This document shows, one piece after another, positions 3,401 through 36,000 of a stretch of 64,000 bases of DNA. How positions within the stretch are numbered: the stretch's first letter is position 1; every line of letters starts with the position of its first letter. Source of the DNA: Lineus longissimus (Eukaryota; Nemertea; Pilidiophora; Heteronemertea; Lineidae). The translations under genes were made by a program, and so were the position numbers. The stretch covers positions 14,929,501-14,993,500 of the forward strand of contig NC_088323.1 in assembly GCF_910592395.1 (NCBI RefSeq), read 5' to 3'. Under the pieces are notes generated by a model that made no database searches, had not been told where the DNA came from, and was given only the letters and a program-made list of their open reading frames with translations.

Positions 3401-6400
3401 GATGTCGGGAATCCTTTTGATGTTCAGATCGAGGATGAGGAGACTGAAGACGTTTTGGCGACCAACGGGGTAGGTAAAAACAAAGCGGACATCTCTCTAT
3501 TAATACAACCTCTCTAGTAAGGACTTTTGATTCATAACTGGTTGTTTCCATTCAATGTGACCTCTCTAATCAGGACATCTCTCTATTAAGGACAACCTCT
3601 CTAGTAAGGACACTAGTTTTGATTCCAAACTGGTTGTTTCCATTCAATGTGACCTCTCTAATCAGGACATCTCTCTATTAAGGACAACCTCTCTAGTAAG
3701 GACACTAGTTTTGATTCATAACTGGTTGTTTCCATTCAATGTGACCTCTCTAATCAGAACATCTCTCTATTAAGGACAACCTCTCTAGTAAGGACACTAG
3801 TTTTGATTCCAAACTGTTTGTTTCCATTCAGTGTGACCTCTGTAATCAGGACACCTCTCTATTAAGGACAGCACTTGTCAGTAACAAGGATGTCCTTAAC
3901 AGAGAGGTTCGACTGTATTGGACATTGGGGGTGTTCACACAAACCAAACTTATCTAGATTAATCTGGACTGGTCCAGATTGGTCTGCTTTGTAAACGTGT
4001 GCCATTGTGATCTGATTTGGTCGGTTTGGTTCACAGTGGTGTAATAGGTGTACCGTACCCTCGCCACTTTTGGTCCACTTTTTTGCATTGTGTTCAAATG
4101 GGGCACATAATTTACTTCTTGCAAATTCATGACATTGCGAGCGATGATATCTGGTCTTGTCTGGTTTGGTTTGTTGTGTTTTCTTCAAGGATTTTGCAAA
4201 TAACCTCGATTTGTAAAAGAAAAGTAAAATTGCAAAACACACTTTTTTGGTCATTTCATGATCCGCCAACATTTTGAAAATATTTTGATTAGAAAACTAT
4301 GACGACGTCTTTTCTTTTTTTTTGTGGGCAATTTTTATTTTACGCAAACGTGATTTTTCACAAATTGTACAAAAACGAAAACACGAACATTTGGTGTTTT
4401 TCACGAATTAAATTTTGATGTAATTTCAGTATGGAGGTGGGCGAGGCCGCCAAAACTCGATGGAAGAGATTGAAAGTGACAGTGATGAGGATGTCCCCGA
4501 CGAACTGAAACAGGACTTCATTGATGAGAATACGGGTGACACGCCGAGTAGGCCAATGTATCGACGACGGAAACTCAGTAATAAATCTGGTGCAAGGCTC
4601 CCTCCAATTATCACCAACACGACTCTCACTCTGCTCAGGCTTTTTGGTTAGTTTGCTGTTGTTTGTTGTTTGTTGTTTGTTTGTTGTAGTTTGTTTTGTT
4701 GTTGTTTGTTTGCTCTTTGCTGTTTTTTGTTTGTTTGTTTGTTTGTTTGTTAAGTATCACCAGAAGTGAAGTATCATCTTTACGATACACATGCCCTCTT
4801 CCCTCCAAATTTTCGAGCAAAATGAGTAGACCTCTCTATGTGATGTTGCCAGTTCTTATCTTGGTCACGATCAGCCTACTGTTGTCTAGCAAGGTCATGT
4901 TCGTCGCCTCTGGCAGTCTCCTTTCACTTAATTTTCAAACTTCTCCTCAGAGCGGGTCGTTGCTGATAGACTCTCATGAAGAGATAACGCCAAAATCTAT
5001 ATCCGTAATAGAAGGAGTGTCCTGCTACAGAGGTGTCTGCTAAGGGAGGTTCCACTGTACTTGTGTAACCAATACCTTATCTATTTCCGTGTTTATTTTC
5101 AGGTAAATACATGCAGATGATGAACGTGTTAAAACCCATTGCATTTGATGTGATGATCTGTATGTCAAAGCTATTCGACTACTATCTATACGCTGTAAGT
5201 AAACAAAAAAACACCCAAACAGACCTGTGCCTTTTATTGTTATGTTTTTTGTATTAAAGGGACAATATAGGCATTGACAAACGACACAAACAAAGTTAGC
5301 TTGCTAAAGTTAGCTCTTTTAAAATGCTAAATGTCACCCCTTCCAGCAAACCCATTTCAAATCTCTGAAACCTCGTACCCATGGCTTGTTCTGATGCAAT
5401 GCTAATGCTCCCATATACGGAATAAACATCATTGCCCGAGGTTACATCACTAGGGTATGTATTGAGAGCTATTTCACAGTGATACATCGCTGTCCTGTTC
5501 GTGATGTGATGTCATGGAATAGGCCCGCTCTGTTCGTGATGTGATGTCATGGAATAGTCCCGCTCTGTTCATGATGTGACGTCATGAAATAGGCCCGCTC
5601 TGTTTGTGATGTGACGTCATGAAATAGGCCCGCTCTCTTCATGATGTGACGTCATGAAATAGGCCCGCTCTGTTTGTGATGTGACGTCATGAAATAGGCC
5701 CGCTCTGTTCGTGATGTGACGTCATGAAATAGGCCCGCTCTGTTCATGATGTGACGTCATGAAATAGGCCCGTTCTGTTCATGATGTGACGTCATGAAAT
5801 AGGCCCGCTCTGTTCATGATGTGACGTCATGAAATAGGCCCGCTCTGTTCGTGATGTGATGTCATGGAATAGGCCCGCTCTGTTCATGATGTGACGTCAT
5901 GGAATAGGCCCGCTCTGTTCATGATGTGACGTCATGAAATAGGCCCGCTCTGTTCATGATGTGCTGCCGTCCCGACCCCGTTACCCATTACATTTCGTTG
6001 ATGAGTGAGTAACGTGATGTAATGTTCTTCTTCAGGTCTACAGCTTCTTTGCCATTGACGCAGTAAGTCATCTCAAATAATATTGATTCGGGGTTAAAGG
6101 GCAAATCCATTCATGTTAATTGTTTTTTCTAGTGGCTCTGGTAAAAAGAAATAAACAATACCGTAGTGCAGTTATCATGCAAGCAAATTTGCTAAAACCT
6201 GGCAGGAACTTTTGTATATAGGTCTACACAATGGCGTTGCTGATTTGTTTTTTCCAGAGCATATATCAATGCAATAAGGAGCACCAGATAAGCTTTCTCA
6301 CAATAGGTGGCTCTGGTGTACTAATGAGTATAGGAAATTGACTTCAAACAAGATCATTGGCAACAACCAACACTGAAAGTGACATAACAATTTCAATTCC

Positions 6401-9400: not shown

Positions 9401-12400
9401 ATCAACTCTACTATATCCCTTGAAAAGGTTCACATTTTATCAACTCAGCTATATCCCATACAATAGGTTGACTTTTGATCAACTCTACTATATCCCTTGA
9501 ATAGGTTCACATTTTATCAACTCAGCTATATCCCATACAATAGGTTGACTTTGATCAACTCTACTACATCCCTTGAATAGGTTTACATTTCATCAACTCA
9601 GCTATATCCATACAATAGGTTGACTTTTGATCAACTCTACTATATCCCTTGAAAAGGTTCAAATTTTATCAACTCAGCTATATCCATACAATAGGTTGAC
9701 TTTTGATCAACTCTACTATATCCCTTGAATAGGTTTACATTTTATCAACTCAGCTATATCCATACAATAGGTTGACTTTCGATCAACTCTTCTATATCCC
9801 TTGAATAGGTTTACATTTTATCAACTCAGCTATATCCATACAATAGGTTGACATTTTATCAACTCAGCTATATCCATACAATAGGTTGATTATTCAAATT
9901 CAAAGTAAAGACAATAAACGGTCATAAGACATTAAAATCAAGATGCACCCGAGTTGAATGAGGCGTTGTTTACATTATCATAGACTCCTCAGAGCCAATC
10001 TTACAGTGCACAAATAGTGAGAGCTTCGGAATGATATAACATAACTGTAATACATAGAATAATATCATCATCATCATAATCATCATTATCATCATCATGG
10101 GGGACTCATGAAACACCCATGAGTCAATAAATACACATGACAGTGCATTGCAGTCCAGAGTGAGGCAAAGACACTGCAATGCACTGCCTATCATGTGTCA
10201 GCACATGGTTCGGGCCTACTCAAAAACAGAAACACACTTTTGCAGCATTTTTGGGCTCAAAGTTACAAATAAAAGACATTTCAGAGCGATTTTTCAAATT
10301 CAATCAACATATAAAGGAATACATGGTCAGTGTAGTACAGTAGCACCTCGCTGTACTGTCAAGGACATCCTCGCGACTGCCAAGTGCTGTCTTTGATAGA
10401 AAAGTATCCTGATTAGAGAGGTCAAATTATATGGAAACTGCCACTTTGGCACCAAAACTAGTGTCCTTTATAGAGAGGTTGTCGTTTTTACAGAGGTGTC
10501 CGCTGTAAAATAAGGAATAGCAATAAGCCTAGTCACAATTCTCTTTTTGATATTGTTTCAGAGTAAAGTGGCACACCCCCACCTCTCTCCCATTGTTGAC
10601 CTGACAAGTGCTGAAGGAATGCATGGGTTGGGAGAGAGAATCATTGCTGTTGAATCACTGTGAGTATTTTCAAAAAGATTGGCCAAATATCCATAAACTT
10701 TGTTTCCAATTGAAAGTAGGGAGCAAGGGTTGCTGGGAGTATCAAGGCTAAGATTGTATCTGTTATATTACAACTTTTTCCAGGCTTTTACGAGTGTTCA
10801 AATCCTTTTTATCAAGCCATAGCCATTTTATTTTGCAGTTTTTGAAATTGCATCGCAAAGCGTTTCAAAAAACAGTAATTTCAACTAGATTTTCTTTTTC
10901 GGCCCAGATATTTCACAGTTATCTCTAAAACTAAAATACACTTGAACATTTCAGGGGTTACAGTATGTTGGTGATCCTCTGTTACTTTTTTTCAGCGTAT
11001 TTTTGGCGGACCAATTCCAGTTCCTGCAGCCGCACCTCGAGGGGATGATTCCCCAGAACAAGAAGGCGTTCCTACAACAGTTCTATTCGCAGACGGTCGG
11101 CGTCACGCCCGAACTCCGCCAACCGGTTTACACAGCCGTTGCAGCACGGTCGATTGATTATGATCAGCTAATTCAACTGATGGCGAGCGTCCGATGGGAC
11201 ATAAAGGACATCATGTCGCAACACAGTACATATGTCGATCAGGTTTTACGAGTGAGTTGATTCACCTGTGGAATCAGTAACAAGCTCTGCGAGGGTCTTC
11301 CACCTCGCAGAGGCAAGGCTAGCCACCTCACTGAGGAAGTCCACCCATGCCATATTTATATTAGTTAACACTATAAGTGTTCAGTATTTTCGAAGTTTTA
11401 AATTCTCAAATACAGTGGAACCTCCCTTAGCGGACACCTCTCTATTAAGGACACTCTCTCTATTAAGGAGACTTGTTTCGGTCCAAAATTGGTGGTTTCC
11501 CTTCAATTTGACCCCTATAATGATGAAACCTCTCTATCAAGGACAGCAGTTCTCAGTCCTGAGGGTGTCCGTAATAGAGAGGTTCCACTGTAGTTTCAGC
11601 TTTTATCCATTCTCTCTAATTGCGTCAACCACTTACTTCGCAAAAGCAGGTTACATTTGAATGTGTGAACTTTCGTTGGGCTGGTGATAATGTTCCCCAA
11701 TTAGTTTTGCTTAATTTTTGTTCCTTATTCCAGGATTTCCACATTTTTGCCATGAAGTTGGACAACTTGTCGAAAAGGGTACCGATGCCCTTCGTTGTTT
11801 CATGCTGTCTCTGGGAGCTGTGTATCACGCTCGCGAATACCACCTTTGTTGAAGGGTAAGTTATCAAGTGGAGAATATTCAGGCCTTTCAGTTATATTGA
11901 GTTCACAGTATGTGGTAACTACGAATAGAAAATCTGAATGAAATAACTGTTACAAGCTTACATAAACAAATTAAATGCCAAAGTGTGTCATTTTACTTTA
12001 GCGCGCCACAACAATATTGGGCAAACATTTCCAGCTTTATTGTAACTTCACAACTGCAGAGATTAACCCTTTCGCTGTGGAAGTTTCTTTTGACCAGCGC
12101 TGCCATGTGCTGACAGTTGATACCAATAATGAACAGTGGAGCTTACTTTTAGCGAACAGTCAAAACTATTCAAACATTTTTCGCCATCTGTACTATTAGG
12201 ATGAAACTAATCCTCCTCAAATGCGTTGGGAGAGAAAGTGCTGGTGAATTGATATTTTGGTAGGGCATGACGTGCTATGCCTGTCACCTGACTAATATAA
12301 GACCAAGTGTCATGACATGCTGTGCTTGCATCCACGGCAAAAGTAGAGTTCAGCCCTCTTTAAAAAATAAACTTGCAACACTGCACCAAAAACAAAAAGA

Positions 12401-15400
12401 ATCTGGAACCGGAACTTAAACTTAACGTCACAGAAAGCACAGTAAAACAAACAGTTTTCTGTTGCACAACTCAAGTTTCAAATAAATGACTTAACTACCG
12501 CTCATGACAACAAAACTTAGAAATAATACAGGAAGCGTTACGAATATAAACAGTCATTTTGCAAATACATTACATAGAATTCATGAAATAGACAAGCGCA
12601 ACACAAAAAATACCGAGTCAGACAGCACATTCTTATCAAACTAGCACCTCGAGCTTCGAAAAAATTTAAAGCTCAACTCGACTGCGGAAAATCGTGACAT
12701 TTTTGGAGGTGTATTTTTTCTGGAGATTTTAGTGATGCTTAGACAAACGCTGACTTGAAGGCGCAAAACTTTCAACTATAATTCGATCATTACAGGCTTA
12801 CGTTGTTTGTTTTCTTTATTGGTTATTTCCATGAAATCGACACACGCCGCCTGAGAAAATTGGCCTTATTTAGCAGATTTGTGATGGTTGAAACAATACA
12901 CATATCTCTCAGTATTCTCATATGACAAACTGAGGACACACATAATCAACATGCAGCGTTTGGGAAAATTGATACACACACTAATTGCATACAGATGGAT
13001 TGGTGTCACCTGGTGTTAGAAATAGGAAACAGATGCAGTTGGACAAATAGTAAATATAATTGAACAACAGAAACAACGTGATATTTAGTCTATCACCAAG
13101 TGAAATGAGCTAATTTACCGACTTTTTGAAGCGTTTTACTACACCAAGTGGCCCATGCCGCCTCCCCAATGGCTGCATCTCCCAAGTGGCCCATGCCTCC
13201 TCCCCAATGGCTGCATCTCTCAAGTGGCCCATGCCGCCTCCCCAATGGCTGCATCTCCCAAGTGGCCCATGCCGCCTCCCCAATGGCTGCATCTCTCAAG
13301 TGGCCCATGCCTCCTCCCCAATGGCTGCATCCCCCAAGTGGCCCATGCCTCCTCCCCAATGGCTGCATCTCCCAAGCGGCCTATGCCTACACTCAAATGA
13401 CTGCATTTCCCCAATGGCTGCATCTCCCCAATGGCTGCATCTCCCCAATGGCTGCATCTCCCAAGTGGCCCATGCCTCCACTCAAATGACTGCATCCCCC
13501 CAATGGCTGCATCTCCCAAGTGGCCCATGCCTCCACTCAAATGACTGCATCCCCCCAATGGCTGCATCTCCCAAGTGGCCTATGCCTCCACTCAAATGGC
13601 TGCATCTCCCCAATGGCTGCATCTCCCAAGTGGCCTATGCCTCCACTCAAATGGCTGCATCCCCCCAATGGCTGCATCCCCCCAATGGCTGCATCCCCCC
13701 AATGGCTGCATCTCCCAAGTGGCCCATGCCTCCTCCCCAATGGCTGAATCTCTCAAATGGCTGCATCTCCCAAGGTCATGGTGTGAAATTTCTCAGTACA
13801 CTTTTACATACAGAGTTTCTCTTACAGTAAATTGAAACCCTTTCTTCTAGAGGCATGACATTTTCACAGATGAATAAATGATACATAAGTGAAATGATTG
13901 GCAAAAAAAATCATCGCGTCAACGTAAATGAGTGGTCTTGTATTAAAATACATTGTGTTACATGTAGTTCAAGCATTGTACTAGGTCCCAGGTAGTGTAC
14001 TGGGGACTGAAAAAACGTGACGTAGCCGAAAATCACCAACTGAGTGCTGACAAGATTTGTCCAACTTGTTACTTCACCTAGTGACTCTGCCTCCTCACTT
14101 CTCCAATGCCAGTGGCTCCACCGCGCAATTATTAGGACAATACTCAAAACATGCAGCATGTAACCATCATAACTAACTAACAACTTAATCCAGGATTTGG
14201 CTGACAGAGCTAGCATCAGGACAAATGCCCCCCCCCCTCAAGATTGCGTTTTCTGATATTTGGGGCCATTTTAAGAATGCTTGAGTTCTCGGAACTTCCT
14301 TCAACCTTACTGTCCTGGTTTAAAGGCAGCGATAGAATTTCTAATACTGTTGCGTCATTCGGATCCAAATCCAGGCGACATGGTGGTTTGCCGAGGTTTG
14401 CATTCACATTTCTTGGTGGCTCTTGGTTCAGTTCCTCCTTGTAAAGTCCACCAACAAAGGCCTTCATGTGTGCTGCCACCTTGTGAGATTTAGCTGCATT
14501 AATGTTAACCCCTTGTAGCAGGTTGACCTTGGGCATCCAGAATATTGGGATGGATCCGCATGAGAGATAGTACTCTAGCTGAGAGTACAGTATGTAGGCC
14601 ATCTCGACCAGGGGGCGCTCATGGTGAAGGAAGTCTTCCACGTTGTGCATAAAGACAGTTTTCAGAAGATAACTTGTGAGAAATTTGTCGACAAAATGTA
14701 ACATGCCGTCATCTTTCACGACAACTTGACAAACGACCGGATCCCTGAGACATTTTGCCAAGATGTAGGCATTCTTTACCCTGGGTTGTAAGTCCTTGAT
14801 GTGCGCGACCTCAAGCTGAGAAAATGTGACACGGTAGAGTCTCTCACGTTCAGCTTCTTTAAAAGTCTTCCCGAATGAGCTATTTTGATGTGGAGGTCTT
14901 ACAACCAACTGGTAGCCCTGTTTCTTGAGGTCATCATATCCCATCATCCAGGTTTTCTTAATGGCATCATCCGGCCAGTTATTTACTTGAAGCACGGGTA
15001 CAAGGTCTATCGACACCACCAGACTGCGCTGTTCGTCCTCCTTCCATCTCAATTGGATGACCGTGCTTGCACTGCCACCACCAGTAACAGCTGAGGGGAT
15101 TGAAACGATCATGTCATCACTTGAATCAATGCGAGACCAGAAAAAAGAATGACCCAACCTACTGCTATCAAAAAAAGACCATCCGTCACACCTTCTGTAA
15201 CCATGGCCAACTTCTGTAATGTTACTTGTGGGAATATAACCTTTGCTGACTGTGAAGTCAAATTCATCAGGGAATCCCACCTTGGTTAATTCGGCTGAAC
15301 CTCCAGTGAGTGTCACAATCCATGAGAGTTTAGCAAGGATCGCCCTAATTTTGGTGTCAATGGTTTCGTTCAGCTCATTCAGTTTATCCTGATTTAGGCT

Positions 15401-18400
15401 CTGGACCAAACCCAAACCTGGGAATTTGATCAATCTGGAAGTGGAAATTCTTTTCCTCTCTTCTACTTCATGCGGTGAAAGGGCCATCCTGAAGATGTCC
15501 CAGTTAATGTCTTCACTAAAAGAAAGATTGTGGTGATCCCTCAAATCCTCTGCATGTTGGTTTAATCCAGCAATCAGGAGATACTTGTAAATATCAATAG
15601 ATCCACTTTGAGATAAACATTGTGCAAGTTCGACATTGCTTAGGAAAGACAATGTTGCACCCAATGAGTGGAGCATTCGGACACATTCAAAATGACTATG
15701 TGAGATAGCTGTGGCTAAAGGAGACTGTCCGTTTTGACCTACATAGTCTAAACCTGGTGTTTTGTTCATTTTCGCAAGAAAAATTACAACCTCTTTCTGT
15801 CCATATCCCGCTGCCAGCAGTAACCATCTTTCAATGGTTTTCTTAAGGTCGGCTTCATCAGTGATATTTTTCAAAAAGTATTCAATGACATTAATCTGTC
15901 CGTGTATCACACAGTTGTCCCGAGAAGAAAATCCATCATTATCCTTACTCGCGATGTCTGTGCCATGTTCAATTAGAATCTGGACAATTTCTGTTTGACC
16001 TACTGTTGCCGCTTGGTTTAACGGAGATTTCCCCTTGTTATCTTTACTCTCTATATCAGCTCTCTGTTGGTGCAATGTCTCCATCGAGTTTTCACTTGCC
16101 TCGGTCATTTCACCTCTTTCTAAAAGAAGTTTCACAACACCCCCATGTCCATTAGATGATGCAATCCAAAGGGGAGAATACCCACCATCTGTATTACTCT
16201 CTATCAGTGCTCCTCTGTCTAGGAGGAGTTTCACAACACTCTCATGTCCATTACATGATGCAACCAAAAGGGGAGAAACCCCTTCATCTGATTTACTCTC
16301 TATTAGTGCTCCTCTGTCTAGGAGGAGTTTCACAACACTCTCATGTCCATTATGTGATGCAGTCCAAAGGGGAGAATTCCCTTTTTTTGATTTACTCTCT
16401 ATCAGTGCTCCTCTGTCTAGGAGGAGTTTCACAACACTCTCATGTCCATTATATGATGCAGCCCAAAGGGGAGAACACCCATCAACTGATTTACTCTCTA
16501 TCAGTGCTCCTCTGTCTAGGAGGAGTTTCACAACACTCTCATATCCATTAAATGATGCAGCCAAAAGGGGAGATTGCCCATTATCTGATTTACTCTCTAT
16601 TAGTGCTCCTCTGTCTAGGAGGAGTTTCACAACACTCTCATATCCATTAAATGATGCAGCCAAAAGGGGAGATTGCCCATTATCTGATTTACTCTCTATC
16701 AGTGCTCCTCTGTCTAGGAGGAGTTTCACAACACTCTCATATCCATTAAATGATGCAGCCAAAAGGGGAGATTGCCCATTATCTGATTTACTCTCTATTA
16801 GTGCTCCTCTGTCTAGGAGGAGTTTCACAACACTCTCATGTCCATTATATGATGCAGCCCAAAGGGGAGATTGCCCATTATCTGATTTACTCTCTATCAG
16901 TGCTCCTCTGTCTAGGAGGAGTTTCACAACACTCTCATGTCCATTATCTGATGCAGTCCAAAGGGGAGATTGCCCATTATCTGATTTACTCTCTATTAGT
17001 GCTCCTCTGTCTAGGAGGAGTTTCACAACACTCTCATGTCCATTATATGATGCAGCCCAAAGGGGAGATTGCCCATTATCTGATTTACTCTCTATTAGTG
17101 CTCCTCTGTCTAGGAGGAGTTTCACAACACTCTCATGTCCATTACATGATGCAGGCCAAAGGGGAAAAGTCCCTTTATCTGATTTACTCTCTATCAGTGC
17201 TCCTCTGTCTAGGAGCAGTTTCACAACACTCTCATGTCCATTATATGAAGCAGCCCAAAGGGGAGATTTCCATTTATCTGATTTACTCTCTATCAGTGCT
17301 CCTCTGTCTAGGAGGAGTCTCACAACACTCTCCTGTCCATTACGTGATGCAGCCAAAAGGGGAGAAGTCCCATTATTTGATTTACTCTCTATTAGTGCTC
17401 CTCTGTCTAGGAGCAGTTTCGCTACACTCTCATGTCCATTATGTGATGCAACCCAAAGGGGAGAAAACCCATCACCAAATTTAACCTCAAGCGATAGACC
17501 AAATATATAGAGAATTTCTACGACTGTGTGATATCCCGTCGATGATGCAGTATAAAGGATCAAGTACCGGATCAGGTACAGGAACAGGAACAGGTACAGG
17601 AACAAAGTCAAAATGAACCAGATAATGGACAAAAAGGCCAATTTAAAATCAGCCTCCATGAACCAGACCGAGACCGAGACCGCGACCCAGACCACGACCG
17701 AGACCACGGTCAAGACCACGCTCCAGAGCCTAAAACGGACCCTGACCGCCTCCCATCCATCATCATCCATTGCATCAGTCACTGTTTTTCTCCTTCACAT
17801 CTATGACGACATCTCATTCAATGTCCGTAGGCTTTTTATCAAACAGGAATTAATTATCAGTGTCAGAAGCCTTCTTTGGCTTGCGAGTTGTGTAATTCGG
17901 TGCCGGGTAAATGAAATATATATATATATCCTTCTGTGGTTAAAGTGGGCTTTACCAGGTCTTCCTTCACAATCTTGAACTTGAGGCCAGCTCAGCTCTG
18001 TAAATCAAATAATTACAAAACCTAACAAATTTGTTTATTTATTTTTTTCAGGTAAAGATTAGAGATTTAATCCATGCTTGCTTTTTGGCTCGCCGTAGGG
18101 GAGTCTATACAATACCGCAGTGTCCGTCGTCCGTCGTCGTCTGTCGTCGTCCGTCGTCGTCGTCGTATCCTGTTTAAAAAACAGTGGCACGTTTCTTAAC
18201 CGCTAAGCCTATGAAATTGTAACTTTGTACACAGGACTCCCTTGGTCAGATGACCTGTGACACTAAATTTCGGTCCGATCTGATTCTTAATTTGGCCACC
18301 AGGGGGCCGAATGTAGATATCTAAAAAGTGTGATATCTCGCTTATTAATGACTTGTTTGGAATGAAATTTTTGTGGTAGGTACTCATAGCAAGGATACAT

Positions 18401-21400
18401 CATATATCGTACAGGTTTTTAATTTGACCTACTTTTCAAGGTCACAGAGGTCAAATGGCGTAAATTGGCTGTTTCAGTGTAACTATGGCACGTTTCTTAA
18501 CCACTAAAGCTATGAACTTGAAACTTAGTACATATAACCCCCTATATCACATAGCCTCTGGTGCTGAATTTCAGTTTGATCTGATCCTCGACTTTGCCAC
18601 CAGGGGGCCAAAAGTGGAAATCTAAAAAGTGTGATATCTCGCTTATAAGTGACTTGTTTTCGATAAAGTTTTTATGGTAGGTACTCTTAGGAAGAATACA
18701 TCACATGTCTTACGAGTTTTCAATTTGACGTACTTTTCAAGGTCACAGAGGTCAGATGGTGTAAATTGGCCGTTAGAGTGTAAACTATGGCACGTTTCTT
18801 ATCCACTAAAGCTATGAACTTGAAACTTGGTACATATAACCCCCTATATCACATAGCCTTTGGTGCTGAATTTCAGTTCGATCTGATTCTCAACTTTGCC
18901 ACCAGGGGGCCAAAAGTGTGATATCTCGCTTATAAGTGACTTGTTTTCGATAACATTTTTATGGTAGGTACTCTTAGGAAGAATACATCACATGTCTTAC
19001 GAGTTTTCAATTTGACCTACTTTTCAAGGTCACAGACGTCAGATGGCGTAAATTGGCCGTTAGAGTGTAAACTATGGCACGTTTCTTAACCAGTAAAGCT
19101 ATGAACTTGAAATTGGTGCATATAACCCCCTACATCAGATAACCTTTGATGCCGAATTTTGGCCTGATCTGATTCTTTATTCGGCCACCAGGGGGCCATA
19201 ATGGAAAAAGGAAGAAGTGCAATATCTTGCTCATTTGAGTGAATTGTTTTCGATAAAATTTTTATGGCAGGGACTTCTAGCAAGGATACACCACATGTCC
19301 TACGATTTTTGGATTTGACCTCCTTTTCTAGGTCACAGAGGTCAAATGGCATAAATTGGCCATTAGAGTGTAACTATGGCACGTTTCTTAACTGCTGAAG
19401 CTATGAACTTGAAAGTTGGTACATGTAACCCCCTACATCAGATAATCTCTGACACCGAATTTTGGCCTGATCTGATTCTTGATTTGGCCACCAGGGGGTC
19501 AAAACTGAAAAAGTAGGACGTGCAATATCTCGCTTATTAATGACTTTTTTTCGATGAATTTTTTATTGCAGGGACTCATAGCAATCACACGATATTGATC
19601 TTGTTGATGTCATAGACAATTATTGGTTGGATCATAAACTTATATATACTGCCCTGTCTTATTACTTGACATCAATACACATCTAAAAAAAGTCTTCATG
19701 CCTGATTGTGTTCACCATATTCACCTCTAAATTAAGCATGATCCTGCCTACTAAAAGATGTATACGGTGAGCACAATGGCCCCTGGCCGTTTCATTTTTT
19801 AAAAGATCAAACCGTCTTTTTCATCATTTTTTCGGTTGCTCGTTCTGCTACAAATATATATATCTCGATTGCAAAAACCCTTCATCAAATGGTATCATGG
19901 CCCAAGCCTTAGGAGATTATCAAATTTAGATGCAGCAGCAGGCTGTTGTGCAGTGCTATACAGATGTCTTCTGCATTCTGATTGTTTTAGATGCACACCA
20001 AACAGACATTGGCAACAGATTCGGCTGTCCTAGGGAGGTCTCCTTCCGAGCCCCACAGCTTTGTGATCAGGGTGGTGTCCTTTGGTCAGTATTTTGCTCT
20101 ATTCAGCTGCCCTTTGTATGTAATGTGTTGACGTAATTAAGCTGGTTGAGGGGTCCCTGTGCTAAAGCCTATTTTAAGCCCATGTTTGACAGACCGGGCT
20201 CAACCTAATTGCGTCGACACAGTATATGTGTGTTGAAAAGAGTTTGCAAAAATGCTAGAACTAGTTACAAGCGTCATTAAAAAGAATGAGGGTTGTGGAT
20301 TTTAGGGTTCGCATTATGGGGTTAAAGCAAGAACATAGCACTTGACTCTTACCTTTGTGTTCTTTAATGCATCTAGGATTCGTTCTTCTTAAGTTTATGC
20401 TGGCATCTATGTGAATTCGTGGGGGTAAATCTTGTTGACAATCATTTGCAGCCTCTATCAAGGTCAGATATGTGTTCCTTTGACTTCGATTGACTCGCGT
20501 ATTCTGCTTTTATTGATGAGTTATAACTGTTTGAAGAATATAAAATGTGGTGGTTAGCATGATGGTTTGTTTAAGGATAGGTATTTCTGAGGTCGAGGTT
20601 TGTTCTTCTTCTGTTTCATAAGTAAACAATTTTTCGGAAGACCGGGTATATTTTGCAAGCCTCTCGCTGAACAAGCATGATTTTTGCCATGTTTGGAGAG
20701 CCACTTGCCGAACAGCACTGAAAATCAACCCAGTTTGGCAAGCCCCGCTTTAAATATCAATGAGTTCGGCTCTCCATTTAGGGCAAAAAAGGACTTTAGG
20801 ACTTTAGGACTTTCGAACTTTCGGGGTCTTCCTACGTCTAAACATTTTGCAGATTTACGAGATGAGTTTGTAAGTAAAATTCAAAAATATTGTGGCAGAG
20901 TTCGTATCACTGGATTGAGGTTAGTCCTTATGAATAAGGAGTACTTGTCAATCCCACAGCTGTCCACCAAAAATGTAGCGGTAAAAGGGCTTATAATATT
21001 TGTCACCGTATAAACTTCGCAACTCTGAACTCGAACCCAAAGACTAAACCAACTAAGATATTTACATTATTTATTATCCACGTCCCTCTAACCTCATATC
21101 TACAACCGACACTAAAATATTACAAAAATAAGGCGCACAATAAAATATCAACAAGAGATCATATAAAAGAATCTTACCATGCTGTAAGGTCAAGGGTGAA
21201 GTCAATTAGAAATGCTCTGGCGCTTTTCAAGAGAAATATCTTGTTTAGCTACAGAGGGTAAAGGTTGGTTTTCTGGATCTGCCAGGACTTACTAAAAACA
21301 TATGAACATCATCATTTATACCTAATTGCACACACCCCTAATGGGTAAATAGCCTAGCCCAAATATCAGGCTCTGAGCCAACTAGCACTCAGTAATTAAG

Positions 21401-23992
21401 GAAATAACCAATCAGTACACAGCAGCATCAATACAAGATTATCAGACAGGGCCAAGGGCAGGGGCCTAGTAACCAGCTGCTAATCAGGAAGATCATGAAA
21501 GGGGTCAAACAGCTTAAAAGATAGAGATTATAAAACAATGGAAAGGGGCAATTAAGAAGGAAGGTGTTGAAACTTATAATGGTTAACGATCCTGGGTGTC
21601 TGGGTTCACCAGGGCTAGAGAGAAACACAGAAATAATAATTACAGATATAGTAAGCAATTCCTAATATTGTCACATTGATAAATTACCTGTATTTATGAA
21701 ATTCCAAATTAATTGGACCTGTAATAAGACGGATATGATGAAGTCGTCATCCAAGTCGTAGGCACCACCAAAACTTGGAATACGACGTCATAATTTCCTC
21801 CTTATGCACAGGTCCGATCTGGAACTTTAAAATCCTTGTACAGTGGAACCTCCCTTAGTGGACACCTCTCTATTAAGGACAACCTCTCTATTAAAGACAC
21901 TAGTTTTGGTCCCAAGTGGGTTCTTTACCATTCAATTTAACCTCTCTAATCAGGACACCTCTCAATGGACACATTCTGGACTGACAAGATAGTGCTGTCC
22001 TTAATAGAGTGGTGTCCTGATTAGAGAGGTCAAATTGAATTGAAACAGCCAATTCGGGGCCAAAACTAGTGTCCTTAATAGAGAGGTTGTCTTTAATTTA
22101 GAGGTGTCTGCTAAGGGGGGTTCCTTTGTACAGAGTCAAGAATCTACACAGTACACATGCCATAGTTGAAAGGACAGATGGACATCTGATGCCACAACAA
22201 CTTGACCGAAAAGAGGCTGCGTTCAGACGTTCGCGATGAGGGCATATTGAAATGGCCTTATTATGTAAATGTTGAAACGTGTCAAATGAAACAGCCAATA
22301 TAAACAAACCATGCAAATGCCCCACTCATTTAAATTTTCCAATTTCTTCAGATAGGCGAGCGCCAAAACATTTACAACAGAGGGGCGAACATTTGATGCT
22401 GTTAGACTTGGCGCTAGGGCGGATACCTGAAAGTTTGCAACAGATGGATGGGCGGTGATGCTGCGATGATTGTCCCAATGCAAAAATGGTGTCCTCTTTG
22501 AAAACCCATTCATTTGAATCTTTCCTATTTACGACAGTAGATTGGGGCGTATCCCTGAATGTAAATACAGCCCATTCATTCTTTTAAAACCCATTCATTT
22601 TAATTTTTCCAATCTCTTCAGAAATTCGAGCGCCCATAAATTTCCATCAGATGAGCAGGCGGGGATGCTGTGATGCTGGGGTGGATACCTGAATATGAAT
22701 ACAGTGATAATTGTATCACTGCAAAAACGGTATCCTCTCTATAAAAAACCCATTCATTCGAATCTTTCCAATTTCTTCAGATATGCTAGCGCCAAAAAGT
22801 GTACAACAGAAGGTAGGGCGTTGATGTTGTTAGACTTCCAGCAGTTTTTGATGAAGCTTGAGAAGTTGACAGAACTGCGCCCAATCCCAGAACGCGAATA
22901 TGTTGAAACCTACATCAAGGCCTACTACCTTCCCGAGGACCAGTTAGAGACCTGGGTCAAAGACCACAAGGTAATTATAGCTTAGTTCAAACGCTTTAAT
23001 CAATGGAAAAATTCATTCTGAGCGCAACTGCTCTAGAGAAATGATGATTTGGTGCAGAATATTAGCCCGTATGCTAATTGCATATGTAAAACACGTCACA
23101 TCATGACGACGCTATACTTCTGGAGATTTATGCAACGTCATTTTTCGTGACATTTCTTCAATGACGCGAAACCCCTGTTCAAAAAGGTGTCGTAAAATAT
23201 CCTATGCTGTTGTATCGGGTCTTTTTCTCGCGCGGCTGTGGTCGGAATGAACTTTTGAATGTATCAAGTTGCTGGGACTTGATGTAACAATCAATTTGAG
23301 GAAGGTTTGATAACATTTCGAGAGCAATTGTGAAAATGAGAGTGATTTTCAAGATTTCTGAACATCTTGAACTAATCTAAAGTCTCCCTATCTCCCTGTT
23401 GACTCTTTCTTGTTATAAAACTGAAAGATAGACATATAGATGCAAGTTTCAATCTTGGAATAATGGATGACCCATGCTAGACTCTATGGTATTTCTCACA
23501 AATATTAGAATAACTCCTTATAAAAAACAAACTTGGAATCATGGATGATCCATAGTAGACTCTTACAACTCTATTACTCACAAATATAAGAAAAACTATA
23601 AAAAAACAAACTTTGAAGTTTTGGCCAAGTCGCCCAAAAGGAGCTTATGAAAGCGACTATAGGGATATATAGTGGAACCTCCCTTAGCGGACCCCTCTCT
23701 ATTAAGGACACCATTTCTAGTAAGGACACTAGTTTTAGTCAATAAAATTAGTTATTTCCATTCAATTTCACCCCTCTAATCAGGACACCTCTCTATTCAG
23801 GACAGCACTTGTCAGTTCCGAGGGGTGTCCTTAATAGAGAGGTTTTACTGTACATGTAAAGTCATTTCCTCGTTTCTCTGTTTCCAGGAATACACAACAA
23901 AGCAGATCATATCGCTCGTCAATTGTCTACCGCACATCAACAAGAGAGCGCGGCAACGCATCATCGGGGTCATTGAGGAAACACGTCGATAA
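371..23992 (+). CDS. VPS50: VPS50/syndetin (CCDC132), C-terminal 639 residues, 13 exons
   Basis: Syndetin is the subunit that distinguishes the EARP tethering complex (with VPS51, VPS52, VPS53) from GARP. EARP acts on recycling endosomes and, in neurons and endocrine cells, in dense-core vesicle cargo sorting. Thirteen exons can be joined with every splice phase consistent: 371-497, 853-1033, 2468-2657, 3278-3469, 4430-4646, 5103-5194, 6036-6062, 6599-6721, 10562-10659, 10996-11251, 11734-11855, 22781-22970, 23888-23992. They total 1920 nt, or 639 codons plus TAA. Recognisable syndetin stretches are [80 protein letters not shown] and the tail HINKRARQ. The family is about 960 residues long, so about a third (the N-terminal coiled-coil part) lies upstream of the window. 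No frameshift or stop interrupts the exons. The last intron but one is 10.9 kb and hosts an antisense gene. Confidence 0.93.
853..1033 (+). CDS. VPS50: VPS50 exon b
   Basis: The acceptor is TTCCACAG and the donor AG|GTAAGT. The exon encodes [20 protein letters not shown] followed by LGRIWQDVQ and [13 protein letters not shown], all matching the central part of syndetin. It enters with two bases and leaves with two bases of split codons. Confidence 0.9.
1160..1555. repeat. 96-bp tandem repeat, four copies, in VPS50 intron
   Basis: The word gcactttacatt recurs at 1176, 1272, 1368 and 1464, a period of 96 bp. Units differ mainly in the length of an A-rich stretch of the form aaaacaaaaaa. A short run of aacat follows at about 1598-1620. 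Confidence 0.85.
1813..1950. repeat. Imperfect foldback sequence in VPS50 intron
   Basis: A stretch around 1843-1875 (tctcacaaaaaccgcc then gtggagctaaaa) is followed by its imperfect reverse complement at 1888-1920 (ttttagctccac then gcggtttggatgaga). The outer parts ggaattgatac and gtatcaatttc also pair. It could be a second kind of non-autonomous DNA element; no clear target-site duplication is seen. Confidence 0.5.
2468..2657 (+). CDS. VPS50: VPS50 exon c
   Basis: The acceptor is TTCTTTAG and the donor CAG|GTATTG. The exon encodes 63 full codons after one phase base. It includes [38 protein letters not shown] and [10 protein letters not shown], the most conserved block of the family. Confidence 0.95.
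2935..3098 (-). mobile_element. tRNA-derived SINE-like element
   Basis: On the minus strand a tRNA-like stretch carries an A-box-like segment (gatggagtagcttggg) and a B-box-like ggttcaacccc about 45 bases later. This is the layout of an internal RNA polymerase III promoter. A functional tRNA fold was not established, so a SINE head is more likely than a tRNA gene. Confidence 0.45.
3278..3469 (+). CDS. VPS50: VPS50 exon d
   Basis: The acceptor is TTTTCAG and the donor GGG|GTAGGT. The 64 codons run from EFRFLRHK to [13 protein letters not shown]. The DEETEDVLA(S/T)NG motif is diagnostic of syndetin, and the residues before it are variable and probably disordered. Foldback element copy 2 begins about 20 bp after the splice donor. 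Confidence 0.93.
3488..3915. mobile_element. Foldback MITE, family M (copy 2, internally multiplied)
   Basis: This is the same word family as copy 1 but with the sub-unit 'tggttgtttccattcaatg ... tctctctattaaggac' repeated several times. The 3' end ggttcgactg is followed by TA; a matching 5' end is not visible, so it looks 5'-eroded. Confidence 0.7.
4430..4646 (+). CDS. VPS50: VPS50 exon e (acidic linker)
   Basis: The acceptor is TTTCAG and the donor G|GTTAGT. It encodes [19 protein letters not shown], then a [13 protein letters not shown] segment and [16 protein letters not shown]. The acidic serine-rich SDSDEDVP(D/E)ELK stretch and the following TNTTL segment match syndetin. It is likely a flexible linker between the vesicle-tethering core and the C-terminal domain. 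Confidence 0.93.
4650..4752. repeat. GTTT-rich simple repeat just inside the intron donor
   Basis: A run of (G)TTTGTTTGTT units starts a few bases after the donor of VPS50 exon e. It makes spurious open frames on both strands. Confidence 0.8.
5010..5057. mobile_element. Foldback MITE, family M (copy 3, one end only)
   Basis: Only the right end remains, with aggtgtctgctaagggagg followed by ttccactg and TA. It lies 46 bp before the acceptor of the next VPS50 exon. Confidence 0.55.
5103..5194 (+). CDS. VPS50: VPS50 exon f
   Basis: The acceptor is TTTTCAG and the donor GCT|GTAAGT. It encodes [19 protein letters not shown] followed by [10 protein letters not shown], one of the best conserved parts of the syndetin C-terminal domain. 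Confidence 0.95.
5498..5963. repeat. 35-bp tandem array with ten TGACGTCA sites
   Basis: Thirteen full 35-bp units and a partial one lie in the VPS50 intron. Each unit has the form ttcatgatgtgacgtcatga then aataggcccgctctg. Ten units carry the perfect palindrome TGACGTCA, the consensus CRE bound by CREB/ATF factors. Units 1, 2 and 11 carry TGATGTCA instead. Regulatory use is only a possibility. Confidence 0.92.
6036..6062 (+). CDS. VPS50: VPS50 exon g, 27-nt microexon
   Basis: The nine codons VYSFFAIDA lie between TTCTTCAG and GTAAGT. They fit exactly between the neighbouring exons, and syndetin has a similar aromatic stretch (YTFF) here. Without them the DYYLYA to SESS junction would lack that segment. 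Confidence 0.82.
6599..6721 (+). CDS. VPS50: VPS50 exon h
   Basis: The acceptor is AATTCAG and the donor AGG|GTAAGA. The 41 codons include [20 protein letters not shown] and a proline-rich loop, matching the SSRLRTTL segment of syndetin. The SINE array begins about 10 bp after the donor. Confidence 0.92.
6731..7142 (+). mobile_element. SINE head: tRNA-like sequence in 67-bp tandem copies
   Basis: The first unit contains tagccgagtggttaacac, an exact match to the A box of class II-like tRNAs, and gggttcgatc, a B box. Five to six units follow with a period of 67 bp (starts at 6813 and 6880, for example). Later units have cctagtggttaacac in place of the A box and all keep the B box. Downstream (7143-7320) comes a SINE-like body. 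Confidence 0.8.
7143..7320 (+). mobile_element. SINE body with core shared with 54795-54870
   Basis: This follows the tRNA-like head directly. The segment from gaatgagactttaaacc through tggtgtccatgccag to gttaaagactcca reappears in diverged form near 54800 (gatgagactaaaagctgtgg ... gtctatgccagggc), so it is a dispersed conserved core. The element is therefore probably a tRNA-derived SINE with a conserved central domain. Confidence 0.6.
7321..8737. other. VPS50 intron sequence, no gene recognised
   Basis: Open frames here are short and have no recognisable family. A stretch near 7395-7460 (aatactccctggag ... cacctccgag) resembles one at 728-775, suggesting an unnamed dispersed repeat. Confidence 0.5.
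8738..9890. repeat. 76-bp tandem array made of two 38-bp half units
   Basis: About fifteen copies alternate between a half with cattttatcaactcagc then tatatccatacaatagg and a half with ttgacttttgatcaactc then tactatatcccttga. The two halves are themselves related, so a 38-bp unit was duplicated, diverged, and then amplified as a pair. Confidence 0.9.
10061..10097. repeat. (ATC)n microsatellite
   Basis: A run of atc/att trinucleotides in the VPS50 intron. Confidence 0.8.
10338..10505. mobile_element. Foldback MITE, family M (copy 4)
   Basis: It begins with cagtagcacctcgctgta after TA and ends in gtccgctg before TA. The interior contains the family words gtcaaattatatggaaac and actagtgtcc. Its right end has lost the usual 'ggttccactg' form, so it is a diverged copy. 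Confidence 0.65.
10562..10659 (+). CDS. VPS50: VPS50 exon i
   Basis: The acceptor is TGTTTCAG and the donor CT|GTGAGT. It encodes [20 protein letters not shown] and [11 protein letters not shown], matching the PHLS...V.LTS segment of syndetin. The last two bases combine with the first base of the next exon to give Leu. Confidence 0.92.
10996..11251 (+). CDS. VPS50: VPS50 exon j
   Basis: The acceptor is TTTTTTCAG and the donor CGA|GTGAGT. The 85 codons include [32 protein letters not shown] and the [20 protein letters not shown] segment. The last is a strong syndetin signature. Confidence 0.96.
11413..11590. mobile_element. Foldback MITE, family M (copy 5, intact ends)
   Basis: This is the best preserved short copy. 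It runs from cagtggaacctcccttag to gagaggttccactg, flanked by TA on each side, and is about 178 bp. The perfect 10-base terminal match cagtggaacc / ggttccactg defines the family ends. Confidence 0.85.
11734..11855 (+). CDS. VPS50: VPS50 exon k
   Basis: The acceptor is TATTCCAG and the donor GG|GTAAGT. It encodes [19 protein letters not shown], then [17 protein letters not shown], matching the LW(E)xCIxLANxTxVEGY region of syndetin. Confidence 0.94.
11870..13139. other. Intron sequence, no feature recognised
   Basis: This is AT-rich sequence within the 10.9-kb VPS50 intron. No coding region, RNA gene or repeat could be supported. Confidence 0.5.
13140..13775. repeat. 38-bp minisatellite (ccaatggctgcatctccc)
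   Basis: Units combine a segment like aagtggcccatgcc with ccaatggctgcatctccc. The regular period at the left is 38 bp; further right the units are mixed, with shorter 'ccccaatggctgcat' copies interspersed. The array is free of stops in several frames on both strands, so long open frames here are an artefact of repetition. Confidence 0.92.
14216..17782 (-). CDS. Membrane-anchored ankyrin-repeat protein with Mab-21/cGAS-like nucleotidyltransferase domain
   Basis: The gene is 1188 codons in one exon, nested antisense in a VPS50 intron. Residues 1-18 are polar. Residues 19-41 and 48-77 are two strongly hydrophobic segments, predicted as a membrane hairpin. From about 79 come a degenerate ankyrin repeat, then about 14 tight 33-residue repeats (core [13 protein letters not shown]) to about 565, then looser repeats to about 745. 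The C-terminal part has the hallmarks of the Mab-21/cGAS-like family. A GG motif (827-828, [11 protein letters not shown]) is followed by PDEFDF with E840 and D842, and SIDLVPVL supplies the third acidic residue, D926. The helical half has SYLLKTVF and [21 protein letters not shown]. The residues aligned with the cGAS metal ligands are all present, so it may be catalytic. Known relatives sense nucleic acid and make cyclic dinucleotides; ligand and product here are unknown. The residue 1100-1188 tail looks disordered. A TATA-rich stretch (17917-17929) lies about 135 nt upstream of the ATG; its role is unproven. Confidence 0.85.
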   Translation of the reverse strand: MTDAMDDDGWEAVRVRFRLWSVVLTVVSVVVWVAVSVSVWFMEADFKLAFLSIIWFILTLFLYLFLFLYLIRYLILYTASSTGYHTVVEILYIFGLSLEVKFGDGFSPLWVASHNGHESVAKLLLDRGALIESKSNNGTSPLLAASRNGQESVVRLLLDRGALIESKSDKWKSPLWAASYNGHESVVKLLLDRGALIESKSDKGTFPLWPASCNGHESVVKLLLDRGALIESKSDNGQSPLWAASYNGHESVVKLLLDRGALIESKSDNGQSPLWTASDNGHESVVKLLLDRGALIESKSDNGQSPLWAASYNGHESVVKLLLDRGALIESKSDNGQSPLLAASFNGYESVVKLLLDRGALIESKSDNGQSPLLAASFNGYESVVKLLLDRGALIESKSDNGQSPLLAASFNGYESVVKLLLDRGALIESKSVDGCSPLWAASYNGHESVVKLLLDRGALIESKSKKGNSPLWTASHNGHESVVKLLLDRGALIESKSDEGVSPLLVASCNGHESVVKLLLDRGALIESNTDGGYSPLWIASSNGHGGVVKLLLERGEMTEASENSMETLHQQRADIESKDNKGKSPLNQAATVGQTEIVQILIEHGTDIASKDNDGFSSRDNCVIHGQINVIEYFLKNITDEADLKKTIERWLLLAAGYGQKEVVIFLAKMNKTPGLDYVGQNGQSPLATAISHSHFECVRMLHSLGATLSFLSNVELAQCLSQSGSIDIYKYLLIAGLNQHAEDLRDHHNLSFSEDINWDIFRMALSPHEVEERKRISTSRLIKFPGLGLVQSLNQDKLNELNETIDTKIRAILAKLSWIVTLTGGSAELTKVGFPDEFDFTVSKGYIPTSNITEVGHGYRRCDGWSFFDSSRLGHSFFWSRIDSSDDMIVSIPSAVTGGGSASTVIQLRWKEDEQRSLVVSIDLVPVLQVNNWPDDAIKKTWMMGYDDLKKQGYQLVVRPPHQNSSFGKTFKEAERERLYRVTFSQLEVAHIKDLQPRVKNAYILAKCLRDPVVCQVVVKDDGMLHFVDKFLTSYLLKTVFMHNVEDFLHHERPLVEMAYILYSQLEYYLSCGSIPIFWMPKVNLLQGVNINAAKSHKVAAHMKAFVGGLYKEELNQEPPRNVNANLGKPPCRLDLDPNDATVLEILSLPLNQDSKVEGSSENSSILKMAPNIRKRNLEGGGHLS
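16090..17480 (-). repeat. 99-bp coding repeats of the ankyrin array
   Basis: In-frame 99-bp units encode the ankyrin repeats of the antisense gene. Neighbouring units differ at only a few bases. Three consecutive units (about 16530-16800) encode identical protein and differ in DNA essentially by a T/C change. This points to recent unequal crossing-over or gene conversion. Collapsed or extra copies in an assembly are also possible. Confidence 0.93.
18085..19640. repeat. About 300-bp tandem repeat, five copies, with GTC-rich leader
   Basis: Units start with tggcacgtttcttaac at about 18186, 18487, 18787, 19075 and 19378. They share gatctgattct, gccaccagggggcc, gatatctcgcttat and caaggtcacagaggtca. 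A (GTC/CGT)n microsatellite at 18119-18175 precedes the first unit. Copies differ by tens of percent, so this is an old array. The family is not recognised. Confidence 0.85.
19641..21840. other. Intron sequence, no gene recognised
   Basis: An open frame at 20684-21013 (+, 109 codons) has no recognisable domain. Nothing else could be supported in this stretch of the VPS50 intron. Confidence 0.45.
21841..22128. mobile_element. Foldback MITE, family M (copy 6, extended)
   Basis: It runs from cagtggaacctcccttag after TA to a diverged right end (ggggttcctttg before TA). It contains about one and a half internal rounds of the family words in both orientations. Confidence 0.75.
22320..22420 (+). 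pseudogene. Decayed duplicate of VPS50 exon l start (copy 1)
   Basis: The sequence ttccaatttcttcag, identical to the real acceptor region at 22766-22780, is followed by ataggcgagcgccaaaac, tacaacaga and tgatgctgttagactt. This parallels the first about 70 bases of the true exon. Read in the required phase, the first full codon is TAG, so it cannot be used as an alternative exon. Confidence 0.8.
22580..22745 (+). pseudogene. Decayed duplicate of VPS50 exon l start (copy 2)
   Basis: The stretch cccattcattttaattttt then ccaatctcttcag is followed by aaattcgagcgcccataaa, a diverged copy of the exon start. The required frame meets TGA after about 17 codons. The trailing part (ggatacctgaa ... gcaaaaacggtatcctctc) matches the sequence after copy 1, showing that a larger unit was tandemly duplicated. 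Confidence 0.75.
22781..22970 (+). CDS. VPS50: VPS50 exon l
   Basis: The acceptor is TTTCTTCAG and the donor AAG|GTAATT. It encodes [20 protein letters not shown], then [28 protein letters not shown] and WVKDHK. These are hallmark residues near the C terminus of syndetin. It is the only intact member of a small tandem duplication of its acceptor and 5' half. Confidence 0.96.
23670..23850. mobile_element. Foldback MITE, family M (copy 7)
   Basis: It runs from tagtggaacctcccttag to gagaggttttactg with TA on each side. It sits in the last VPS50 intron, about 37 bp before the acceptor of the terminal exon. Confidence 0.78.
23888..23992 (+). CDS. VPS50: VPS50 terminal exon m
   Basis: The acceptor is TTTCCAG. 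It encodes [20 protein letters not shown] then [14 protein letters not shown] and TAA. The EY(S/T)TKQ...HINK(K/R)ARQ motif is the conserved C terminus of syndetin. No poly(A) signal was assigned. Confidence 0.95.
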   Translation, partial: EYTTKQIISLVNCLPHINKRARQRIIGVIEETRR

Positions 23993-26365: not shown

Positions 26366-27740
26366 ATTTGTAATTTGTAATTTGTAATTTATTTGGCCAA
26401 CATAATAATTAAAGTACATGTATGAGATTTTTAACAGTGGAAATAACGGCCAGGGACACAGCCAAGATCAACAATTAGATCGCTTACGGCTGTGCCCCTT
26501 CTGAAATAAAATAGATTTAAGAGAAAGGACAAACAAACACAAAAAGTACCTCTGGGTAAGAACCTGCGTGGAACAGCTAGATACACAAAAGGGTTAGTAT
26601 GAAATTGACTCGAATTGTTATGTTTTTGATATTAAAAATCAGGAATGAGCACATACATAACAGTGTGGAATTACACAGCGAGAACTGTATAATACTAATA
26701 AATAATTTTTTAAATAGGTCCTGAAGCCATGAAGACTGTGAGTGTGAATTTTGTCCGAGACCAAGGAAGGGAGGGAATTGAAGATAGCGACAATACTATA
26801 AAGTGGTCTTTTTTGGCTAAATTTAAGTCTGCGTCGTGGAGTTGTCAATTTCTGCCCGTTTCTAGTATTGTGAGTATGTACTTGGTCATTTGTTTTGATA
26901 GTGTTATGCATGAAGTAGCCCGGAAGGTCATTATTGACAAATTTGTATAGGAATTTCATTTGTAGAAGTGAGTGTAAGTCTGTTAATTTCAATACTTTTA
27001 AAGTCTTGAAGAGAGGTTCAGTATGGGCAATAAGCTTTCTGTTTGTGATCACTCGAATAGCCTTTTTTTAAGTTTAAGGATAGAGTCATGTTCGTAGCCC
27101 CAGGACAGTAGCTGATAATTCAGATGTGGAGTAATGAGGGCGTGGTACACAGTAACTAAGGTTTTTTGATTAACATAGGATTTGAGGTGTTTCAAAATTC
27201 CAATTGCTCGTGATACCTTTAAGGCTATCTTACGTGTATGAGGGACCCAACTGAGGTATTTATGGAGTGTGAGGCCAAGAAAATCAAATTGTTCCACTCT
27301 ATCAATCGGGATATCGTTGATTTTTGGAGTGATGTTGATGGCTTTTGAGTTAGACCGTTCGAAGATGATATATTTAGTTTTGGGGAGGTTTAGTGACAGT
27401 TTATTAGCTTTTAGCCAATCTGCCAATTTTGATAATTCTGTGTTAATATTTGCATTCATTTCGTTCAGATTTAGTTCAGACCCAAGGTTGTTTAATTCGC
27501 TCTCTAGAGTGGTGTCATCAGCGAACATGACGCTGTTAAAACTACCACTGGCTTTGTTAATATCGTTAATATATATGATAAATAATAGAGGACCAAAAAT
27601 AGACCCTTGGGGGACCCCTGTTTTGATTTTTGCACGAGTTGATTCTGTACCGCAGTAGTCAACAAATTGTTCCCGATTGAAAAGATAGTTACTCATAAGC
27701 GAAAGAGCTTTAGAATTTAGTCCATAATGTTTCAATTTCA
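26366..27740 (-). pseudogene. 5'-truncated, frameshifted CR1-like LINE reverse transcriptase
   Basis: On the minus strand one open part (27735-27049) has TGVPQGSIFGPLLFIIYIND and FADDTT, the reverse-transcriptase motifs B and C of CR1/jockey-type LINEs. A frame change near 27050 leads to the C-terminal part (27052-26639), ending in HCYVCAHS. The 3' end carries a (TAATTTG)n tail at 26371-26390. The 5' side stops where the 70-bp satellite begins (27741). It is related to, but clearly different from, the LINE at 32598-37112. Confidence 0.88.
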
Positions 27741-35581: not shown

Positions 35582-36000
35582 ACATATTGGTTCAGAAAAG
35601 TCCACCGGAACTATGAACCAGAGTTAGAAATGGCTCGCAGTTTTTCACTGTCTTTTTCACAAGAGATCATTACGCTTGAAAGTTCGAAGAACATATTGGT
35701 TCAGAAGAGTCCATCGGAACTATGAGCCAGAGTTAGAGATGGCTCGCAGTTTTTCAATGTCTTTTTCACAAGAGATCATACGCTGAAAGTTCGAAGAACA
35801 TATTGGTTCAGAAGAGTCCATCGGAACTATGAGCCAGAGTTAGAGATGGTTCGCAGTTTTTCAATGTCTTTTTCACAAGAGATCATACGCTGAAAGTTCG
35901 AAGAACATATTGGTTCAGAAGAGTCCATCGGAACTATGAGCCAGAGTTAGAGATGGCTCGCAGTTTTTCAATGTCTTTTTCACAAGATATCATATGCTTC
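35582..36000 (-). repeat. 107-bp tandem repeat overlapping the 3' end of LINE ORF1
   Basis: Nearly four units begin with acatattggttcagaa at about 35689, 35797 and 35904, with a first, more diverged unit at about 35582. Each holds ggaactatgagccagagtta and tggctcgcagtttttca. The last unit contains the end of ORF1 (stop at 35934), so copies of the ORF1 terminal codons are repeated downstream of it. Confidence 0.9.

Follow-up and report, generated by a model that had tools for sequence, protein, structure and literature searches.

The window analysed here, a stretch of 64,000 nucleotides of the nemertean Lineus longissimus (contig NC_088323.1, hereafter C16, positions 14929501-14993500, in a genome of 391 Mb on 30 contigs), carries a single open frame that joins a hydrophobic N terminus, an array of ankyrin repeats and a domain resembling cyclic GMP-AMP synthase (cGAS) (Table 1). 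This architecture, proposed in an initial annotation made from the bare sequence, is plain in the sequence and was confirmed by Pfam and hydropathy. The frame of that annotation, 14216..17782, is also real and lies on the minus strand, but its start is not: 17782 is a GTG, which serves as a start under bacterial rules only, and the first in-frame ATG, set in GCAATGG, is found at 17770 and is preceded by a stop in the same frame. Residue numbers given here are therefore those of the annotation minus 4. The frame represents more than chance, because four more open frames on C16 carry the domain with 90-93% identity and because its fold is confidently modelled.

Table 1. Features of the ankyrin/cGAS-like gene and its surroundings (positions within the window)
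Feature	Position	Strand	Basis
Single frame of 1184 aa, open from ATG to stop, with hydrophobic N terminus, ankyrin array and cGAS-like domain	14216..17770	minus	frame list, Pfam
Hydrophobic segment 1, residues 11-29	17684..17740	minus	Kyte-Doolittle mean 1.85 over 19 residues
Hydrophobic segment 2, residues 49-67	17570..17626	minus	Kyte-Doolittle mean 2.72 over 19 residues; within model helix 42-78
Fourteen ankyrin units of 33 residues (99 bases), similar and in tandem, residues 102-563	16082..17467	minus	repeat analysis
Diverged ankyrin units, ~residues 577-735	15566..16042	minus	Pfam, model
cGAS-like nucleotidyltransferase domain and Mab-21_C helix bundle, residues 774-1111 (span superposing on cGAS)	14438..15451	minus	Pfam, profile alignment, fold model
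60-codon block, residues 812-871, with excess amino-acid change vs L037 around the catalytic loop	15158..15337	minus	dN/dS
G823-G824, site of the cGAS GS motif	15299..15304	minus	alignment
E836, predicted metal ligand 1	15263..15265	minus	alignment with cGAS
D838, predicted metal ligand 2	15257..15259	minus	alignment with cGAS
D922, predicted metal ligand 3	15005..15007	minus	alignment with cGAS
Run of ten G close to the frame end	14228..14237	minus	comparison with P0001
Part of a segmental duplication in tandem; pieces 88-100% identical to C16:15010500-15020400 (L037), separated by stretches without a match	10788..22249		DNA comparison

Pfam-A detects the Mab-21_C family at residues 1027-1093 (E 2.6e-7) and the Mab-21 nucleotidyltransferase (NTase) family with the C-terminal half of the model only (E 3.7e-5; 24.3 bits vs a cut-off of 24.1), and our profile A1 matches pig cGAS across profile positions 68-376 of 407. 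Homology thus covers the NTase core as well as the C-terminal helix bundle, and the confident fold model predicts structural homology to the enzymes of the cGAS-like receptors (cGLRs) and CD-NTases, two features by which cGLRs are recognised. Profile and model agree on a cGAS-type fold over the whole domain, the check that the annotation had proposed, and on this basis there is good support for calling the domain cGAS-like. The acidic triad named there (E840, D842 and D926, here E836, D838 and D922) is in register with the metal ligands of cGAS by alignment; that the three residues converge is predicted from this register and from the overall superposition, which agree, rather than from measured distances. 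The accompanying GG, by contrast, is not the usual motif: G823-G824 are present, but pig cGAS and 25 of the 28 family rows read GS, and GG is confined to the window, L037/P0002 and P0001. The available main text of PMC9980059 gives the cGLR motif as h[QT]GS, [DE]h[DE]h and h[DE]h with spacings of 8-20 and 50-90. The window reads TGG, EFDF and IDL at spacings of 11 and 81 and so departs from it only at the S of GS, although in its literal form the motif also rejects pig cGAS and every other row compared and therefore does not discriminate.

Other members of the fold were compared with the window gene. The Mab21L-type gene of this genome (L001; Pfam match 1.3e-44) reads EFE at the first two ligands, in line with the annotation's statement that developmental Mab-21 proteins generally have an incomplete catalytic set, whereas the window has EFD there and also retains D as the third ligand. 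Vertebrate cGAS carries a zinc thumb, H-x5-CC-x6-C; in our alignment the profile has no cysteine opposite the TCC of pig cGAS, which argues against a vertebrate-type cGAS. The MID51 family (PF21297) has no match in the window protein at E 0.001; the MID51-type gene of the genome, L030, matches it at 1.7e-30. On these sequence features the window gene is classed among the cGLRs, as a variant in which one position of the motif is doubtful, rather than with vertebrate-type cGAS, Mab21L or MID51. Its domain is likely catalytic.

The expanded ankyrin array claimed for the frame is borne out by many ankyrin models of Pfam-A (Ank_2, E 1.4e-109) and by the 14 closely similar units, with a mean identity of 0.79 over all 14 and 0.86 over the 11 in strict register. 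Positions 2, 3, 5, 13, 14 and 33 of the unit are those varied in designed ankyrin proteins, and we took these six as the contact face. In the 11 strict-register units the proportion of nonsynonymous differences (pN) at the contact face is 0.270 vs a synonymous proportion (pS) of 0.087, and elsewhere 0.033 vs 0.042 (p 0.001 by permutation over 5000 random position sets); four of the nine units of L037 gave 0.253 vs 0.033 and 0.017 vs 0.047 (p 0.005), unit pairs being not independent in either comparison. Counted as distinct changes over the 14 window units, the contact positions show 23 amino-acid and 1 silent change (15.6 and 2.4 sites), a ratio that rests on few silent sites, and the other positions 21 and 8 (59.6 and 21.4 sites; Fisher p 0.026). 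By these counts amino-acid change is about four times denser at the contact face and is not confined to it. Position 13 holds H, R, Y, C, D, F or S, with a third base T in 14 of 14 units.

Both hydrophobic segments at the N terminus have a length and hydropathy predicted to suffice for spanning a membrane. The hydrophobic N terminus had been part of the initial annotation and proved to be present not only in the window but in four tandem copies in all (the window, L037, L048 and L050), each starting in the same ATG context; from this ATG to the ankyrin boundary they count 216, 105, 486 and 198 bases, respectively. For L048 only the N-terminal stretch was read, its frame length of 1104 aa coming from the protein search of the genome. 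The single segment of L037 is preceded by acidic and followed by basic residues, which suggests a cytosolic C terminus, and the two segments of the window, if they form a hairpin, would place the C terminus on the same side. The predicted arrangement is one or two membrane helices, flanked by basic residues on the array side, with array and enzyme in the cytosol, and the window protein is, judging from these segments, likely membrane-anchored. As separate observations, L048 (C16:15088318) has a hydrophobic N terminus of ~160 residues built from repetitive sequence, and in P0001/L050 an upstream in-frame ATG (MDDDG...) lengthens the N terminus and takes in more hydrophobic stretch.

With a probability of roughly one half, we consider the window gene to encode an immune receptor, tethered to a membrane, that starts to make a cyclic dinucleotide once its ankyrin array has captured a protein. 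The hydrophobic N terminus would tether the receptor to a membrane so that array and enzyme face the cytosol, the array would bind a foreign protein, this capture would activate the cGAS-like domain, and the resulting cyclic dinucleotide would be read by STING. Protein rather than nucleic-acid sensing is suggested because the domain and its spine helix are near-neutral in charge, because the zinc thumb is absent and because the ankyrin face is diversified. We infer a cyclic-dinucleotide output read by STING, and a receptor sensing protein and signalling in this way is plausible; the genome contains a STING ligand-binding-domain exon (L047, C11:2036599-2036703), the translation of which includes GNGLAWSYFFGYLSPMLPGKIQ, which we take to resemble the start of that domain. 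The probabilities given to this and to the alternative explanations are not exclusive and need not sum to one.

Several observations weigh against this reading. The STING evidence consists of one exon with 35 model positions, narrowly over the cut-off (27.4 bits vs 27). Contact positions vary in any ankyrin protein, and the bias towards them is also seen in L038 and L043 (6 and 5 units) and, at the protein level, in P0003, P0004, P0007 and P0008, in a survey where, by the pattern used, 12 of the 16 frames have fewer than four regular units; to this are added the few silent sites and dependent unit pairs noted above and the 21 amino-acid changes falling at the 27 non-contact positions. The full-length model draws N-terminal helices at 16-34 and 42-78 with low to middling confidence (10-residue means of 29 to 83). 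The fifth C16 copy, L049, lacks a hydrophobic stretch at its start, and no hydrophobic segment was seen at the N terminus of the other frames and proteins of the ankyrin family that were scanned (a borderline segment in P0014 lies inside its repeats). Segment 1 overlaps a 12/24-base simple repeat at 17656-17720, and hydrophobic N termini that grow from such repeats could be tolerated rather than used. This overlap and the lack of a hydrophobic start in L049 and the other scanned members, together with the variation in N termini among the copies and with the NCBI model of P0001, which begins at an internal Met, speak for a soluble cytosolic ankyrin-cGLR whose hydrophobic N terminus is a simple-repeat by-product, is spliced out or is skipped via a downstream start. 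We regard this as a possible, if doubtful, alternative, since in four of the five C16 copies the frame is open from the same ATG context and over the N-terminal stretch is the most hydrophobic of the three and the sole one free of stops, and since the database model of P0002 does begin at the shared ATG.

A second alternative is that the domain is a pseudoenzyme, its fold binding nucleotide or partners but making no second messenger, of which MiD51 is an example. The GG of the window's clade, which may weaken phosphate binding, and the NTase match of Pfam, partial and barely above its cut-off, would fit such a loss, yet the three acidic ligands and an SY..K motif are retained even where identity to the window falls to 28%, a conservation not required of a dead fold, and L030, which has DFD, is a member of a different Pfam family; we therefore think a pseudoenzyme unlikely. 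MiD49/MiD51 and ITPRIP-type Mab-21-fold membrane proteins do share with the window an N-terminal membrane segment followed by an NTase fold; they are not known to make cyclic dinucleotides or to carry an ankyrin array.

It is similarly improbable that the protein senses nucleic acid, as characterised cGLRs do, with the ankyrins as a partner-docking arm only. Double-stranded DNA and RNA are the activating ligands named in the available text of PMC9980059, where one active enzyme has an unknown ligand, and the changed block at residues 812-871 beside the catalytic loop could form a ligand surface. Against L037, the nonsynonymous (dN) and synonymous (dS) divergences in this block are 0.264 and 0.064, compared with 0.024 and 0.053 in the remainder and 0.046 and 0.054 over residues 578-1150 as a whole; the clustering was equalled in 0 of 2000 shuffles, and the Fisher p of 0.009 is optimistic as the block was picked for its high count. 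Gene conversion is not favoured as its origin because its dS resembles that of the remainder. However, the near-neutral domain and spine helix, the lack of a zinc-thumb CC in the alignment and the concentration of change at the ankyrin face all argue against nucleic acid as the ligand.

The five C16 copies lie at 14883443, 14943812 (window), 15014702, 15088318 and 15654303, the first four spaced by 60, 71 and 74 kb, and the matches of the window to L037 and of its first 3.2 kb to L046 (98%) indicate a duplication unit of ~70 kb. The longer flanking pieces of the L037 duplication are 96.2 to 98.9% identical, so that the coding dS exceeds the divergence of the flanks (1.1 to 3.8%), which some gene conversion could explain. 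None of the 11 proteins returned by protein search is identical to that of the window, which therefore seems to be without a database entry of its own (its neighbours P0001 and P0002 have entries), and beyond the run of ten G the window copy ends LEGGGHLS where P0001 reads otherwise, so that the last residues differ between copies. These two points, and the shorter frames of copies on C6 and C7 (614 and 424 aa), might be taken to indicate a recent, unexpressed duplicate becoming a pseudogene, which is very unlikely given 1184 open codons, a dN/dS of 0.45 against L037 outside the 60-codon block and a catalytic motif that, although within that block, is identical in both.

The window gene belongs to a family of about 73 loci. 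When the genome was searched at the protein level, 93 candidates yielded 88 matches, which make up 73 loci spread over 16 contigs; an open frame of at least 600 residues is present at 68 of these loci, and 39 have another locus within 150 kb. Pfam finds ankyrins in all 13 family proteins examined (the window, nine others, L041, L042 and P0009). Further tandem arrays occur at C17 0.22-1.31 Mb (frames up to 2561 aa), C12 1.75-2.11 Mb and C15 13.95-14.04 Mb, and in P0006-P0009 an insertion between metal ligands 2 and 3 splits the NTase match in two. Outside the genome, protein searches returned Lineus proteins, metagenome proteins P0011 and P0013-P0015, P0017 and P0018 from ENA and a Nematostella Mab-21 protein (P0019); such a search needs shared 5-residue words and limits length, and does not show absence outside nemerteans. 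In a tree of 35 rows (without the locus duplicates P0002, P0005, P0010 and P0012, the near-identical L041 and L044, the poor or partial L036 and P0014, and L035), P0011 groups with L034 and L039 and P0013 with L027 and L031. Since these metagenome proteins are nested in Lineus subclades, part of the radiation likely predates Lineus longissimus; the cGAS and Mab21L rows are placed with low support (44/19). A viral origin was considered and rejected, as the 4 pattern matches that A1 obtained on viral contigs included no relative.

Ankyrin-fused cGLRs had been described before, a point on which the annotation needs correcting: the available text of PMC9980059, from 2023, describes over 200 cGLRs in two bivalves, 42 in Stylophora and, for some cGLRs, a fusion to ankyrins, and neither the number of the Lineus family nor its fusion is therefore new in kind. 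Ankyrin repeats, a cGAS-like catalytic domain and, in some species, many copies are common to both; that text reports no membrane-anchored cGLR, whereas the window has its hydrophobic N terminus, and in its main text words beginning with "nemertea" occur 0 times. From vertebrate cGAS the window differs by lacking the zinc thumb (in the alignment) and a basic spine helix, by GG for GS and by the added array and N terminus. The array resembles the highly conserved ankyrin repeats of fungal NLRs which, in the available text of PMC4986451 (2014), combine high internal conservation, changing unit numbers and a concave face bearing the selected sites. In those proteins a NOD and varied effector domains precede the repeats, whereas in Lineus, an animal, a cGAS-like domain serves as the output module; in that text the metazoan fraction of such repeats is put at 0.8%. 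Whether the family as a whole forms a variable ankyrin receptor system, with dozens of tandem genes, units diversified on their binding face, one branch whose fast-changing N termini tether it to membranes, and cyclic-dinucleotide synthesis on the same chain, recognising protein rather than nucleic acid and feeding STING, seems to us rather doubtful. If true, an animal lineage would have built an NLR-like repertoire on the cGAS fold, protein sensing by cGLRs would be directly testable with array and synthase in one chain, and nemertean immunity would be opened to study.

Elsewhere in the genome, L035 (C5:10113500-10123400, 2643-4757, minus strand) encodes a separate NTase of Mab-21/cGLR-like type (GSVAEGTKVGGADEFDF), after which the same frame continues through four hydrophobic segments. 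Pfam finds Mab-21 only and a sequence search of the PDB gave no match; the gene may join a cGLR to a multi-pass membrane module. The window itself further holds retroelement frames at 32854-35145, 35937-36809, 59512-63114 and 27052-27735, assigned by Pfam to three reverse transcriptases and an L1 RBD-like protein, and several large blocks of a 70-base satellite, at 27749-32597 and in later blocks up to 47765.

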